The translations under genes were made by a program, and so were the position numbers. Positions 20,540 to 47,158 of a stretch of 64,000 bases of DNA are shown here, in pieces. The DNA is from Rhizorhabdus histidinilytica (GTDB lineage: Bacteria; Pseudomonadota; Alphaproteobacteria; Sphingomonadales; Sphingomonadaceae): positions 620,001-684,000 of the forward strand of contig NZ_FUYM01000001.1 of the NCBI RefSeq assembly GCF_900167915.1, in the 5' to 3' direction. Position 1 is the stretch's first letter. The number at the start of each line of letters is the position of its first letter. Under the pieces are notes generated by a model. The model was not told the origin of the DNA. It worked only from the letters and a program-made list of their open reading frames with translations, and ran no database searches.

Positions 20540-20572
20540 ATATGCGGCAAGGGCCACTATTCGGGAATGGTG

Positions 20573-21466
20573 ATGGATCGACTGACGGCGATGGAAGCCT
20601 TCGTGGCGGTGGCGGAGCTGGGCTCCTTCTCGCGCGCCGCGGCGCGGATGCGGATGTCGGCGGCGATGATGACGCTCCACGTAGCGCGGTTGGAGGAGCA
20701 TCTCGGCGTCCGCCTGTTCAACCGCACCACCCGCCGCGTCGACCTGACCGAAGATGGCCGTGCGCTGCTCGACCATGCGCGCGCAGCGCTCCATGCCTAT
20801 GTCCAGGCGGAGAACGCGCTGAAGCCCGGCAGCGGCCTGACCGGCCGGGTGAGCATCGACGCGCCCGCCTCGATCGGCCACGGCTTCGTCGTCCCCGCGC
20901 TCGAACATTTCCACCGGCTCCATCCCGACATCGTCGTCGATCTCAGCCTCGGCGATCGCGGCACCGTGTTCCGCGCCGACGGCTTCGACATATTGCTGCG
21001 GGTGGGGGAGGCGCCGCTCGCGGGATGGATCGCCGTGCCGCTCGGCGCCACGCGGCTCACCTGCCTCGCCGCGCTCGACTATCTCGATCGCCACGGCACG
21101 CCCGAGACGCCCGAGGACCTCAACGAACATCGCTGCATCCTCTATGCGAGCGTCGAGGGGCCGGGCGGCAATCCGTGGAGCTTCGTCCGCAACGGCCGGC
21201 GGGTGCGCATCCGCCCGCCCGCCGCCTTCACCTTCAACGATGGCGCCGCGATCATGGCGATGACCGCCGCGGGCCTCGGCATCGCCCAGAATCTGGAGAT
21301 GCTGGCGCATGACGCGCTGCAATCGGGCACGCTGCGGCGCGTGCTGGAGGATTGGACGACACCGACCCTGCCGGTGGTGCTGATGAGTGCCAAGGACCGC
21401 TACGCGCTGCCCTATGTGCGCGCGGCGATGGATTTCCTGGCCGAGCGGATCGACTGGCGGCTTTAG
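20573..21466 (+). CDS. LysR-family transcriptional regulator
   Basis: A 297-residue LTTR. The winged helix-turn-helix occupies residues 1-60 (FVAVAELGSFSRAA and ARLEEHLGVRLFNRTTR). The effector domain follows, with a RDG-type C-terminal half. The ATG at 20573 is preferred because GGGA lies about six bases upstream; the ATG at 20567 has no spacing. It is divergent from the DUF1214/SDR/CoA-ligase operon, the usual arrangement for an LTTR and its target. The TAG stop lies in the end of a palindromic repeat. Confidence 0.92.
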   Translation: MDRLTAMEAFVAVAELGSFSRAAARMRMSAAMMTLHVARLEEHLGVRLFNRTTRRVDLTEDGRALLDHARAALHAYVQAENALKPGSGLTGRVSIDAPASIGHGFVVPALEHFHRLHPDIVVDLSLGDRGTVFRADGFDILLRVGEAPLAGWIAVPLGATRLTCLAALDYLDRHGTPETPEDLNEHRCILYASVEGPGGNPWSFVRNGRRVRIRPPAAFTFNDGAAIMAMTAAGLGIAQNLEMLAHDALQSGTLRRVLEDWTTPTLPVVLMSAKDRYALPYVRAAMDFLAERIDWRL

Positions 21467-21551
21467 AGCATCGCGGCCTTAAATCGAGATCACCTTATCC
21501 GCTCAGCCCTCCTCAGGGTGAGCGGGTCATATCCAAGGCGCGACACTCTAG
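21463..21551. repeat. Palindromic intergenic element supplying both flanking TAG stop codons, copy 2
   Basis: An 89-bp element running from TTAGAGCATCGCGGCC to AAGGCGCGACACTCTAG, with related inverted ends and a GCTCAGCCCTCCTCAGGGTGAGC core. The TAG at its left end is the LysR stop codon. The CTAG at its right end is the TAG stop of the - strand NTF2-like gene. It shares outer and inner segments with the loci at 384-694 and 42399-42597. It may also serve as a bidirectional terminator. Confidence 0.85.
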
Positions 21552-22096
21552 CCCCGGTCGCGGGTCAGCGGGCGGAGATAGGAGATGTCGCCCTTGTCGC
21601 GGCGGTTGGGGCCGGATTTATAGAGCATCGCCTCGGCCTCCTCCGGCAGGCGGTTCTCCATGAACAGCCCCGCCTTCTCGTTGACGCAGACGCGGTGCGC
21701 GATCCGCCATTCGCCGTCGCGCTTCTCGAAGCGGTCGACATAGCGGCCGAAGGCGAGGGTGGGCGGGCCCATCCGGTTCTCGCCCCAGAAGACGTAGTAG
21801 GTCTCGCCATGGGCGGTGTCGCCGTCCAGCTCCAGGCTGTGGTTGGCGATGATATGCTGGTGCCTGGTCTGATATTCGCCGTGCCAGCCGATCGCCCAGT
21901 CGACGAAGTCGGCGGCCTCGCCCTCGGCGACCCCATGCTCGTCGAAGGCGTCGGGCCAATAGGCGGACAGCATCAGATCGCGATCGTGCCGGTCGACGCC
22001 ACGGGTGTAGCGCAGCAGGCATTGCTGGATGTCGAAGCGGTCCTTCTGCTCGCGCATGAAGGCAACCAGCTCGGGCGTCAGCGCGGCATCGGACAT
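21548..22096 (-). CDS. SnoaL-like (NTF2-fold) protein
   Basis: A 182-residue protein of the SnoaL_4 type. RFDIQQCLLRYTRGVDRHD is the conserved N-terminal helix with the putative catalytic Asp/His pair. YVDRFEKRDGEWRIAHR is the typical strand pair. Relatives include scytalone-dehydratase-like and ring-hydroxylating-dioxygenase-associated proteins. The start at 22096 has AAGGA upstream. It is the last gene of the long - strand run that begins at the TetR gene, 23 bp after the amidohydrolase. Confidence 0.83.
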   Translation of the reverse strand: MSDAALTPELVAFMREQKDRFDIQQCLLRYTRGVDRHDRDLMLSAYWPDAFDEHGVAEGEAADFVDWAIGWHGEYQTRHQHIIANHSLELDGDTAHGETYYVFWGENRMGPPTLAFGRYVDRFEKRDGEWRIAHRVCVNEKAGLFMENRLPEEAEAMLYKSGPNRRDKGDISYLRPLTRDRG

Positions 22097-41415: not shown

Positions 41416-42402
41416 ATGCAGCGGATCGAGCGGCGGATCGACGTGAGCGAGGCAGCGGGGCTGGGCGAACCGGTCGAGATGGCGGTGAGCATCTTCCTGC
41501 CCGATCCGGCGGACGTGCCGGAACGACCCGTTGCGATCTTCGCGGTGCCGGGCGGCGGCTATTCGCGGGCCTATTATTATCTGAGCTTCGCCAGTCATGA
41601 AGGCTATGACGAGGCCGCCTGGCATGTCGCGCGCGGCACCATCCATGTCGCTATCGACCATGTGGGAGTGGGCGAGAGCAGCATCCCCGACCTGTCGCGG
41701 ATCAGTTTCCAGACGCTGGCCGCGACCCATGACAGCTGCGTCCGCAAGGTCGCCGCGATGATCGAGCGGGGCAGTCTCGCACCCGGCTTCCCGGCTTGTC
41801 CGGGCTTGTTCCGCGTCGGCATGGGCCAGTCGATGGGCGGCGGCGTCACCATCCTCGCGCAGGGGCGCTTCGCCACCTTCGACGCGATCGCGCCCTGCGG
41901 CGTCAGCGCGATCCACACCGCGTTGCCGCAGCGCAGCGCCGAGGAGTTCGAACTCGGCAAGCGCCGCTTCGCCCAGGTCAGCGTCGGCGACGCCAGCCAG
42001 AGCCACCTGACCACCAGCCATGAGGGCGTGGACTATGTCTATCCCTTTCACTGGGAGGACGTGCCGGCCGACATATTGGAAGCCGACATGGCGGGCGGCT
42101 ATCCGATCCGCCAGACGGCGCCGGCGTTCGGCAGCCTGACCATCCCGCATTGCGCGGTGCAGATGATGACGCCGGGCTGCTTCGCCGAGGATGCGGCGCG
42201 GATCGAGGTGCCGGTGCTGGTCGCGGTCGGCGAGCGCGACACCTGTCCCGATCCGCGCGCCGAGCCTTCGGCCTATCGCGCGTCACCCGACATCGGCGTG
42301 TTCATCGTGCCGCGCATGGCCCACATGCACAATTTCGCCTCGACCCGCGAAATGTTGTGGCAGCGCCTCCATGGCTGGAGCCGGATGCTGGCGGCGGCTT
42401 AG
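41416..42402 (+). CDS. Alpha/beta hydrolase
   Basis: A 328-residue alpha/beta hydrolase. The nucleophile elbow is GMGQSMGGG with Ser139, the oxyanion strand IFAVPGGGYS, an acid probably in VGERDTCPD and the catalytic His in MAHMHNF near the C-terminus. The start at 41416 has GGGGAG eight bases upstream; earlier ATGs give poor leaders. It ends the + strand operon, 155 bp after the molybdoenzyme. The TAG stop lies in the end of a repeat element. It is probably an esterase, thioesterase or C-C hydrolase. Confidence 0.83.
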   Translation: MQRIERRIDVSEAAGLGEPVEMAVSIFLPDPADVPERPVAIFAVPGGGYSRAYYYLSFASHEGYDEAAWHVARGTIHVAIDHVGVGESSIPDLSRISFQTLAATHDSCVRKVAAMIERGSLAPGFPACPGLFRVGMGQSMGGGVTILAQGRFATFDAIAPCGVSAIHTALPQRSAEEFELGKRRFAQVSVGDASQSHLTTSHEGVDYVYPFHWEDVPADILEADMAGGYPIRQTAPAFGSLTIPHCAVQMMTPGCFAEDAARIEVPVLVAVGERDTCPDPRAEPSAYRASPDIGVFIVPRMAHMHNFASTREMLWQRLHGWSRMLAAA

Positions 42403-42597
42403 AATATCGGGCGCTTCACCTGACCCACTCATCCTGAGGAGGGACTGAGCCTGGCGAAGGCCCATCTCGAAGGATATTTCCAGCCTCGAACGTCCCTTCG
42501 AGACAGCATTTCGCCTACGCTCAATGCTTCCTCAGGGCGAGCGGGGGCTTTTGAGTCAGACTCTCAGGATGGGCGGAACGGGAGCGTCTCGTTCTAG
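42399..42597. repeat. Palindromic intergenic element supplying both flanking TAG stop codons, copy 3
   Basis: A 199-bp element that starts with TTAG and ends with CTAG. It contains CATCCTGAGGAGGGACTGAG facing CCTTCGAGACAGCATTTCGC and a TCCTCAGGGCGAGCGG end. The left TAG is the stop codon of the alpha/beta hydrolase, and the right CTAG holds the stop of the convergent DUF1214 gene. It is clearly related to copies 1a, 1b and 2 and can fold into a long hairpin between two convergent operons. Confidence 0.85.
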
Positions 42598-43847
42598 ACG
42601 GTCGTCCGCCGGTCCCATTCGCGCTGCCGCCGGGCGATGCGCGCGGCGCGTTCGGCGGCGTCGATGCGGGTTGTATCGGCGGGGATATGCCGGTCGATCT
42701 CGGCGAAGGGCACGATGTCGAGCCAGTGACGCGGCCCCTCGCGGACCTGGGTGGTGGGGATACCCTGCCAGCGGATCATCGGCAGCAGGTCCCTGAGCCC
42801 GCCGGTGTCGACCCAGTTGGCGATCCCCGGATCGCGCGCGGAAACGACCAGGCTGATCGTGCCGTCGGCATCATGCTCGGCCTGGGCGGCGGTGAGGCCC
42901 GACTGGATGCGGTGCGCGTCGATCGAACGGTACCACCACATCGCCATCTGGAAGCTGTTGTAGCAGGCGCCCGCCGGATCGAAGCGGACGATCGCGGCCT
43001 GGTCGTCCTCCAGATGGAAATGGCCGAGGCTGCTCGCCTGGGTGACGAGGCCACCATAGCCGGCGACCCGGATAGGCTGGACCATTGTGTTGACCGGCTT
43101 GCCCGCCGAGAGGCGGAAGAACCAGTAATAGAGAGGCACGTCCTCGCGCATCCGGCGCAGCGCCTCGTCGAGCCGCTGTTCGAGGTCCAGCGGGGCGGCG
43201 TCGTCAAGCCGCTCGATGCTGAGGTCGAGCGGGGTCTCGCGCCCCCAGTCCATCATGCTGTCGCGGATGAACAGGAATTTGGTGCGCGGCGTGCTGGTCA
43301 GGTGATTGGACCGGCCATCGGCAGGTTCGCCATCGATGCTGATCGTGAAGCTACCGTCCTCGTCGAGGGCGATGCCGGGCAGTTCAAGCGTCTGGGCGGT
43401 GACCGACGTCCCCCAATTCTCGACCAGGGTGAAGGAGGCATGGGCGGGGCGGGCGTCAAGGATGCGCCCGCTGACCCGATAGCGGCCCCCCGGCGCGATG
43501 CCGGCCAAACGGTAGCAATTGTCGGGATTGTCGCCGCCCATGCGCGCGTCCGGCACGTCGCCGCCCTGCCAGCGATAGCCGGGCATGAAGTTGCGGACGA
43601 TGCGCGGCGCGGCCGGATCGATCGCCGTCGCCTTGAACAGATAGTTGGTGACCCAGCCGTCCATCGCGCTGTCGAAGCTGTCGAGCAGGCCGTCGGGGAT
43701 GTCGGTGCCGTGGCCGACGCGCCAGAGCTGCGCGGCATGGTCGCGCGCGGCGCGGGTCTGCGGCAACGCCCACATGTGCCGTACTTCCTCCTCGGCCGCG
43801 AACTGGCCGGCATTGGCGATCGGATTGGGCGCGATCGGATCGGTCAT
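42594..43847 (-). CDS. DUF1214 domain protein
   Basis: A 417-residue DUF1214 protein with signature RDPGIANWVDTGG. GRYRVSGRI and similar strands occupy the N-terminal half, and a C-terminal AARIARRQREWDRR is charged. It is homologous to the proteins at 5645 and 19240. The start at 43847 overlaps the sulfotransferase stop by ATGA, so the two are co-translated. The convergent end lies in a palindromic repeat. Molecular function is unknown. Confidence 0.82.
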   Translation of the reverse strand: MTDPIAPNPIANAGQFAAEEEVRHMWALPQTRAARDHAAQLWRVGHGTDIPDGLLDSFDSAMDGWVTNYLFKATAIDPAAPRIVRNFMPGYRWQGGDVPDARMGGDNPDNCYRLAGIAPGGRYRVSGRILDARPAHASFTLVENWGTSVTAQTLELPGIALDEDGSFTISIDGEPADGRSNHLTSTPRTKFLFIRDSMMDWGRETPLDLSIERLDDAAPLDLEQRLDEALRRMREDVPLYYWFFRLSAGKPVNTMVQPIRVAGYGGLVTQASSLGHFHLEDDQAAIVRFDPAGACYNSFQMAMWWYRSIDAHRIQSGLTAAQAEHDADGTISLVVSARDPGIANWVDTGGLRDLLPMIRWQGIPTTQVREGPRHWLDIVPFAEIDRHIPADTTRIDAAERAARIARRQREWDRRTTV

Positions 43848-46030: not shown

Positions 46031-47158
46031 TCAGGCGAACAGGCTGTCGCCGAAACGCTCGGTGTGGCGGACCAGGTCGCCATATTGCTTTTCGAGGCTC
46101 ATCAGCCGGCGGAAATAATGGCTGACTGCATATTCGTCGGTCAGCCCGTAACCGCCATGGACCTGAATGCCGCTGCGCGATACGAGCTGCCCGGCTTCGC
46201 CGATCACGATCCGCGCGGCCGACAAGGCGGCGGCGCGCTCGGCGGCGGGGCGGTTGCTGTTGGCGATCGCGTGGTAGAGCATCGAGCGCGCCTGGTGGGT
46301 CGCGACGAACATGTCGGCCAGGATGTGCTGGATCGCTTGGAACGAGCCGATCGCGGCGCCGAACTGCTTGCGCTCCCTGGCATAGTCGCCGCAGATGCGG
46401 ATGCAGGCTTCCATCGCGCCGACCGCCTGCGCCATCAGCGCCACGCCGGCGCGATGGATCGCCTCGTCGAGCACCGCCTCGCCGCGATTGCTGCCGATCA
46501 GCAGCGCGTCGGCGGAAAGCGCGACGTTGGTCAGCCGGATATCGGCGGCGCGGGTGCCGTCGATCAGCGGATAGGCGTCGACGGTGAGGCCATCGGCATC
46601 GGCCGGCACCAGGAACAGCGCGACCCCGTCCTCATCCTCGATCCGTGCCGAGAGGATCAGTTGCGCCGCGCTAGGTGCGTCGGCGGCCATCAGCTTGGCG
46701 CCCGTCAGGACGAAGCCGTCGGCGGTACGCCGCGCTACGGTGACGACCGCCTCGGTCGACAGCGGATCGGCACCGGGTTCCTGATGGGCGAGGGCGACGC
46801 GCAGCGTGCCGCTGGCGATCTCGCCCATCAGCGCGTCGGCGCGGCCCCGGTCGGCGGCCTGGCGGAGGATCTGGCTCGCCAGCACGACGGAGCTGACATA
46901 GGGCTCGGTGGCGAGCGACTTACCCAGCGCGATGTTGAGCAGGGCGACGTCCTCGATCGTGCCGTCGAGCCCGCCGGCCGCCTCGGGCAGCGGCAGCGCC
47001 AGCCAGCCCAGCTCGGCGAACTGGGCCCAGCGGCCTTCGTCGAAACCGAGCGGATCGTGGCGCCGCTCGCGCCAATATTCGACGCCCGAGCTGTCGGCCA
47101 GCAGCCGCTCGGCGCTGTCGAGCAGCATCGTCTGAATGTCGGATTTGGCGAAATCCAT
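46031..47158 (-). CDS. Acyl-CoA dehydrogenase family protein
   Basis: A 375-residue acyl-CoA dehydrogenase. LALPLPEAAGGLDGTIED is the N-terminal FAD/substrate region, ARERKQFGAAIGSFQAIQH the C-terminal FAD-binding helix, and IQVHGGYGLTDEYAVSHYFRR the conserved end. The usual catalytic Glu position is not obvious. The start at 47158 has GAGGAT. It is 9 bp after the other acyl-CoA dehydrogenase gene. The pair resembles the alpha2beta2 acyl-CoA dehydrogenases of steroid side-chain catabolism. Confidence 0.9.
   Translation of the reverse strand: MDFAKSDIQTMLLDSAERLLADSSGVEYWRERRHDPLGFDEGRWAQFAELGWLALPLPEAAGGLDGTIEDVALLNIALGKSLATEPYVSSVVLASQILRQAADRGRADALMGEIASGTLRVALAHQEPGADPLSTEAVVTVARRTADGFVLTGAKLMAADAPSAAQLILSARIEDEDGVALFLVPADADGLTVDAYPLIDGTRAADIRLTNVALSADALLIGSNRGEAVLDEAIHRAGVALMAQAVGAMEACIRICGDYARERKQFGAAIGSFQAIQHILADMFVATHQARSMLYHAIANSNRPAAERAAALSAARIVIGEAGQLVSRSGIQVHGGYGLTDEYAVSHYFRRLMSLEKQYGDLVRHTERFGDSLFA

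Follow-up and report, generated by a model that had tools for sequence, protein, structure and literature searches.

We examined a 64,000-nucleotide stretch of the Rhizorhabdus histidinilytica genome (contig NZ_FUYM01000001.1, positions 620,001 to 684,000; hereafter the window), in which two palindromic elements are placed between convergent genes in such a way that the outermost bases of each element are part of the TAG stop codons of both neighbours. The first element is flanked by genes for a LysR-family regulator and a SnoaL/NTF2-like protein, and the second by an alpha/beta-hydrolase-like gene and a DUF1214-like gene. A preliminary description, made from the DNA sequence without database searches, had noticed this coincidence at the two loci, and all four gene ends, read directly, do coincide with the element ends. 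The elements are listed here as candidate miniature inverted-repeat transposable elements (MITEs) of the IS630 type, a classification for which the arguments are given below.

20567-21466, + strand: LysR-family regulator (PF00126, PF03466); its TAG stop at 21464-21466 is the left end of the first element
21464-21550, no strand: candidate IS630-type MITE copy (TA + element + TA); the outer TAs lie within the TAG stops of the convergent LysR and SnoaL/NTF2-like genes
21548-22096, - strand: SnoaL/NTF2-like protein (PF13577); its TAG stop (CTA on the + strand) at 21548-21550 is the right end of the first element
41416-42402, + strand: alpha/beta-hydrolase-like gene, TAG stop at 42400-42402 (PF12146 weak, below the Pfam cut-off)
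42400-42596, no strand: candidate IS630-type MITE copy, long-core variant; the outer TAs lie within the TAG stops of the convergent hydrolase and DUF1214 genes
42425-42577, no strand: palindromic core of the long variant, conserved at 88-97% identity in about 20 other copies
42594-43847, - strand: DUF1214-like gene, TAG stop (CTA on the + strand) at 42594-42596 (PF06742 weak, below the Pfam cut-off)

An element family with conserved ends

The genome to which the window belongs (G000, 5.47 Mb) was searched with three copies of the element, and the stretches fetched around matches to the terminal-repeat pattern were scanned. Elements were located at 79 places, 51 of which keep a recognisable terminal repeat with the consensus TAGAGCATCGWGCGTTTWAT. 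The repeats are inverted and occur at both ends, as captured by a profile built over 68 arms, and several copies are intact on both sides. Full copies consist of terminal arms around a palindromic core, CCGCTCATCCTGAGGAG...CTCCTCAGGATGAGCGG; they measure 87-250 bp, with terminal inverted repeats of 20-30 bp, and contain no transposase gene. The repeat recognised in the preliminary description is this core; the CTAG is 20-40 bp beyond it, where the arms end. A longer variant, which includes 42400-42596, carries an extra inner ring. In that copy the well-conserved part spans only about 42425-42577, the outer 20-30 bp being diverged terminal arms; the right arm is too decayed to be scored by the terminal-repeat profile, although the TA there is still exact. 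An exact terminal-repeat match at window position 46275 lies within coding sequence and was discarded as a chance match. The Rfam search of the window matched no family.

Placement at gene ends and target preference

Genes were called with a codon-usage model trained on G000 and not with a published caller; the model recovers the open reading frames expected in the window. A recognisable terminal repeat is present at 74 element ends, of which 63 face the 3' end of a gene, and the end sequence is conserved, so that the conditions named in the preliminary description as refuting it (most copies away from gene ends, or CTAG ends not conserved) do not hold. Of the 74 ends, 21 are exactly at offset 0 from a stop codon. 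When the 51 recognised ends within -60 to +10 of the facing stop are compared with a uniform null, these 21 of 51 ends at offset 0 give p about 1e-25, confirming the preliminary view that the coincidence is beyond chance. Counted per insertion, 19 of the 51 terminal-repeat copies coincide with a stop and 32 do not. Both ends are on stops at three loci: 641463 and 101150 in the tabulated ends, and 662425 by direct reading, the profile being unable to score the decayed right arm of this copy.

The TA is intact at 46 ends, with C or T in front of it at 41. Targets could be reconstructed for 14 copies as CTAG (6), TTAG (2), CTAA (3), TTAA (1), GTAG (1) and CTAT (1), which makes 12 of 14 YTAR (Y, pyrimidine; R, purine). 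In four other genera C or T precedes all 20 terminal-repeat ends, a count that leaves out one mislocated row (L244), and three ends in genome G150 lie exactly on stops.

For the background we used 464 kb, composed of 400 kb in stretches not chosen for elements and the 64-kb window. Stops make up 12% of its non-coding YTAR sites and 20% of its non-coding CTAG sites, and the 19 of 51 stop coincidences exceed both shares (p 5e-6 and 0.004, respectively). Convergent placement was found at 52 of the 79 element sites as compared with 44 of 337 background gene pairs (Fisher p 2e-20); likewise, 36 of the 51 terminal-repeat insertions are in convergent gaps, as against 14% of non-coding YTAR sites. Within the convergent gaps, 9 of 23 YTAR sites are stops, and 16 of 36 insertions coincide with a stop, the background counts being small and dependent on our own gene caller. 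A first background, in which 46% of non-coding CTAG were stops and target choice alone would have been enough, was dropped as biased because it had been drawn from element flanks. The stop overlap is a by-product of YTAR insertion and convergent-gap placement: coincidences arise because the element inserts at YTAR and survives mostly in short convergent gaps.

The convergent bias might instead reflect a useful function, in which the hairpin serves as a bidirectional terminator or insulator between convergent genes and the location results mainly from positive selection. Both forms of the bias given above fit this idea, as do the strong RNA folds of the two window elements (z -4.4 and -4.7). 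However, neither window locus has an intrinsic-terminator signature, there being no U-tract, and the same gene pairs occur in relatives without the element, which is therefore dispensable there. Moreover, the same bias would be expected from purifying selection against insertion in operons and promoters, which we infer to be its cause. Bidirectional termination by the hairpins, raised in the preliminary description, is possible but unsupported, and we consider positive selection for such a function a doubtful explanation of where the elements are found.

Empty sites and the age of the stop codons

The flanks of ten copies were joined around a single TA and sought in 40 related genomes. The uninterrupted joined sequence with a single TA was found in same-genus genomes at five loci, giving the comparison of loci with and without the insertion that had been proposed as a check. 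The LysR/SnoaL site is empty in G013 (L159), with 95.6% identical flanks and the junction CTTTA/GC, and the hydrolase/DUF1214 site is empty in G008 (L160), with 93.5% identity and the junction GCTTA/GG; at both there is one TA and no other change. For the second of these sites the pairwise alignment is valid, whereas a MAFFT alignment misplaced the left flank. C28:27858 is empty in G008 and G013, with one TA and an otherwise unchanged junction. C31:101150, empty in G007 and G012, and C28:444108, empty in G008, G013 and G009, likewise hold just one TA, some of their junctions showing slight differences in the local sequence. A 4-bp duplication of CTAG was rejected as the target duplication because in many copies the two ends do not have the same outer bases (for example TTAG/CTAG, CTAG/CTAA) and the empty sites have one TA.

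In L159 and L160 both window gene pairs overlap tail-to-tail by exactly 4 bp (TTAG), one gene of each pair stopping with TAG and the other with TAA. Because the pairs already share this overlap with both stops, the stops are older than the insertion. At both window loci the element entered the shared TA, which was duplicated, and its terminal G turned one gene's TAA into TAG, with both proteins unchanged. The stop of the SnoaL/NTF2-like gene, for example, is TAG in the window genome and TAA in the empty-site relative.

The empty sites also decide on the proposal that the element supplies new stops, that is, inserts in the 3' part of genes and truncates them by its terminal TAG. It is true that TA followed by the G of the element always makes TAG, and one gene end conforms to the proposal: the right-hand gene at C28:27858-28001 (L090) extends a few codons into the element, which provides its last codons and stop, and the relatives with an empty site have a 20-bp tail-to-tail overlap. 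This right end is a mild case of an element-supplied C-terminus. On the other hand, in the empty-site relatives the genes of the two window loci, and the gene at the left end of C28:27858, stop at an unchanged codon position, and, where both TAs are readable, the original TA+y codon at coincident ends is TAA or TAG and never a Tyr codon. The empty sites refute element-made stops as a general explanation, which we regard as very improbable, and the proposal survives only for individual ends, the right one at C28:27858 being an example.

A candidate partner insertion sequence

Since G000 has no IS630 match, its copies look orphaned, and a partner was sought in relatives. The strict terminal pattern is present in 12 of 150 genomes of the bacterial family. 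One of them, G046 from another genus, carries four identical copies of a 1,057-bp insertion sequence (IS), each inserted in CTAG, with 20/20 identity to the consensus element end. Its transposase matches Pfam DDE_3 (PF13358, E 2e-30) and NCBIfam IS630 (NF033545, E 3e-42, above cut-off). The same-genus genomes G006 and G011 contain remnants of IS630 elements (L216, L217) whose ends are of this type. In every respect tested, and as far as sequence can tell, the family looks like IS630-type MITEs: it has terminal inverted repeats, TA duplication, ends shared with an autonomous IS630 and a short length without a transposase.

The two overlapping reading frames of the IS of G046 (L190:464-1520 and the three identical copies) probably represent a frameshifted transposase. 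In other genera, namely in G150 (L194, L199, L189) and G040 (L182), the same ends surround different palindromic cores such as GTGTCGAGCGAAGTCGAGACAC, which suggests that cores may be exchangeable within the group of IS630-type MITEs. At plasmid level the element was matched just twice, each time weakly and in the core (Sphingopyxis and Sphingobium).

Palindromes of the repetitive extragenic palindromic (REP) type, from the GTAG or CGTC super-families and moved by a REP-associated tyrosine transposase (RAYT), also sit between convergent genes, the termini of GTAG REPs often give a TAG stop, and CGTC REPs are reported from S. wittichii (PMC3733652), but the length of 87-250 bp, the terminal inverted repeats, the TA target duplication and the ends identical to an IS of the DDE (IS630) type leave this explanation with hardly any probability, and in a by-eye comparison with the published description (PMC3733652) the core lacks the CGTC tag, the 8-9 bp stem starting with AT and the CCA tail of CGTC REPs.

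Insertion model

We consider it very likely that the elements are non-autonomous MITEs of the IS630 family that insert in the TA of YTAR or CTAG, and that the stop coincidences follow from this. According to this model, terminal repeats TAGAGCATCGWGC... enclose a variable palindromic core, and an IS630-type transposase, presumably acting in trans, would excise the element, insert it into the TA of YTAR, with CTAG as the best target, and duplicate the TA to give x-TA-[GAGC...GCTC]-TA-y. As the element starts with G and ends with C, every target TA reads TAG from either flank, and a TAG or TAA stop entered at its TA therefore remains a stop codon for the genes on both sides. In a 4-bp tail-to-tail overlap (TTAG/CTAG), where one TA serves two stops, the duplication provides each gene with its own TAG. 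TA, which is part of the TAG and TAA stops, is rare in this GC-rich genome, as are YTAR sites, and most copies have survived in short gaps between convergent genes, in which stops account for about 40% of the YTAR sites.

The preliminary description had suggested that the element inserts at CTAG-like sites overlapping TAG stops, or that insertions are tolerated only there. Site choice is upheld by the single-TA empty sites, the YTAR targets at 12 of 14 copies and the IS630 with the same end in four CTAG, whereas tolerance only at stops is too strong a statement in view of the 32 of 51 copies off stops and of the convergent gaps, in which the frequency of stops among insertions (16/36) is close to that among YTAR sites (9/23).

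Several observations weigh against the model. The core is found without recognisable terminal arms at 28 of the 79 places, for example C28:251455 and C31:251717, and the model does not account for its origin. Relatives have TGA at the same stop position at C36:233487, C26:83600 and C17:210193, which implies that the TA arose in the G000 lineage before the insertion, and the duplication is not directly readable at these three loci. The background set probably contains genes that our caller failed to find. Finally, G000 has no match to an IS630/DDE_3 (NF033545) transposase, so that current mobility in this genome is conjectural. As to the core-only places, either decay of the arms or a core moving by itself would give them.

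The model would offer a mechanistic reason why palindromic repeats often supply the TAG of their neighbours: a TA-duplicating transposon with an outer G could enter TAG or TAA stops on either side without any protein cost. Overlapping convergent genes would become separable by a single event that leaves both proteins as they were, and in GC-rich genomes IS630-type elements are predicted to land most safely in CTAG/TTAG overlaps. One could go further and regard the MITEs as splitters of tail-to-tail overlapping genes, in which TA duplication together with the hairpin makes separate insulated units with unchanged proteins and the element is retained for that, but we think this rather unlikely. 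No description of this family or of overlap splitting was met in the open literature searched, of which coverage was partial.

Copies away from stop codons and variation of the core

The window contains two more copies near its left end.

379-518, no strand: core copy without recognisable terminal arms, adjacent to the next copy, with an extra palindrome in the loop
535-693, no strand: element copy with both terminal repeats, in a CTAG site (534-694 has CTAG at both ends), not on a stop codon

This region had been described as a single third locus, 384-694, that also ends in CTAG. CTAG is indeed present at both ends of 534-694, but the locus consists of two adjacent copies and the CTAGs are not stops; the stop of the left gene (TGA) is at 364 and that of the right gene at 715, so there is no stop coincidence. 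The extra loop palindrome, ATGTCCCCGGACAT-like and beside GAAGACT, was seen in two copies, 379-518 of the window and C17:232912-233092 (L106), as though a second repeat had been inserted there. In the long variant (42425-42577 and about 20 G000 copies) a nested ring, with CCGCTCATCCTGAG twice per arm, surrounds GTCTGACCGGAAAGTGCCTTA / GGGACTTTTGAGTCAGAC and contains GANTC (CcrM-type) sites. A short REP-like palindrome, CATCCCGGCC...GCCGGGATG, lies at about 140830-140860 of C17 in G000 (L105), to the left of the element at 140871.

Comparison with known systems

Caulobacter CIR repeats carry a GANTC/CcrM site in one inverted repeat; there is no GANTC in 21464-21550, and GAGTC/GACTC occurs only in the outer ring of 42400-42596. 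The termini of GTAG REPs often provide the TAG stop of flanking open reading frames, and their placement is mostly convergent or co-directional (PMC3733652). However, GTAG REPs are short single hairpins tied to RAYT tyrosine transposases, whereas the present elements duplicate TA and have long terminal repeats. RUP of Streptococcus pneumoniae, an IS630-type MITE of about 100 bp, likewise has TA targets and ends that match those of an IS630 element (PMC2229807). It reportedly targets regions containing IS elements; the copies described here are instead found at the 3' ends of genes, in a genome that has no matching transposase. IS630 of Shigella sonnei inserts at TA with duplication of TA and prefers 5'-CTAG-3', according to the title of Tenzen and Ohtsubo (1991) as cited in PMC2170065. 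The window family resembles IS630 in the TA duplication, the CTAG preference and the DDE_3 transposase of the partner IS in G046, but differs from it in that the elements are 87-250 bp long and non-coding, with a palindromic core unrelated to the interior of the IS. For IS870 of Agrobacterium, a title cited in PMC6471742 indicates that the CTAG target makes the stop codon of the IS's own gene. In that case the target completes the stop of a gene within the IS, whereas in the present family it is the stops of the flanking host genes that are kept.
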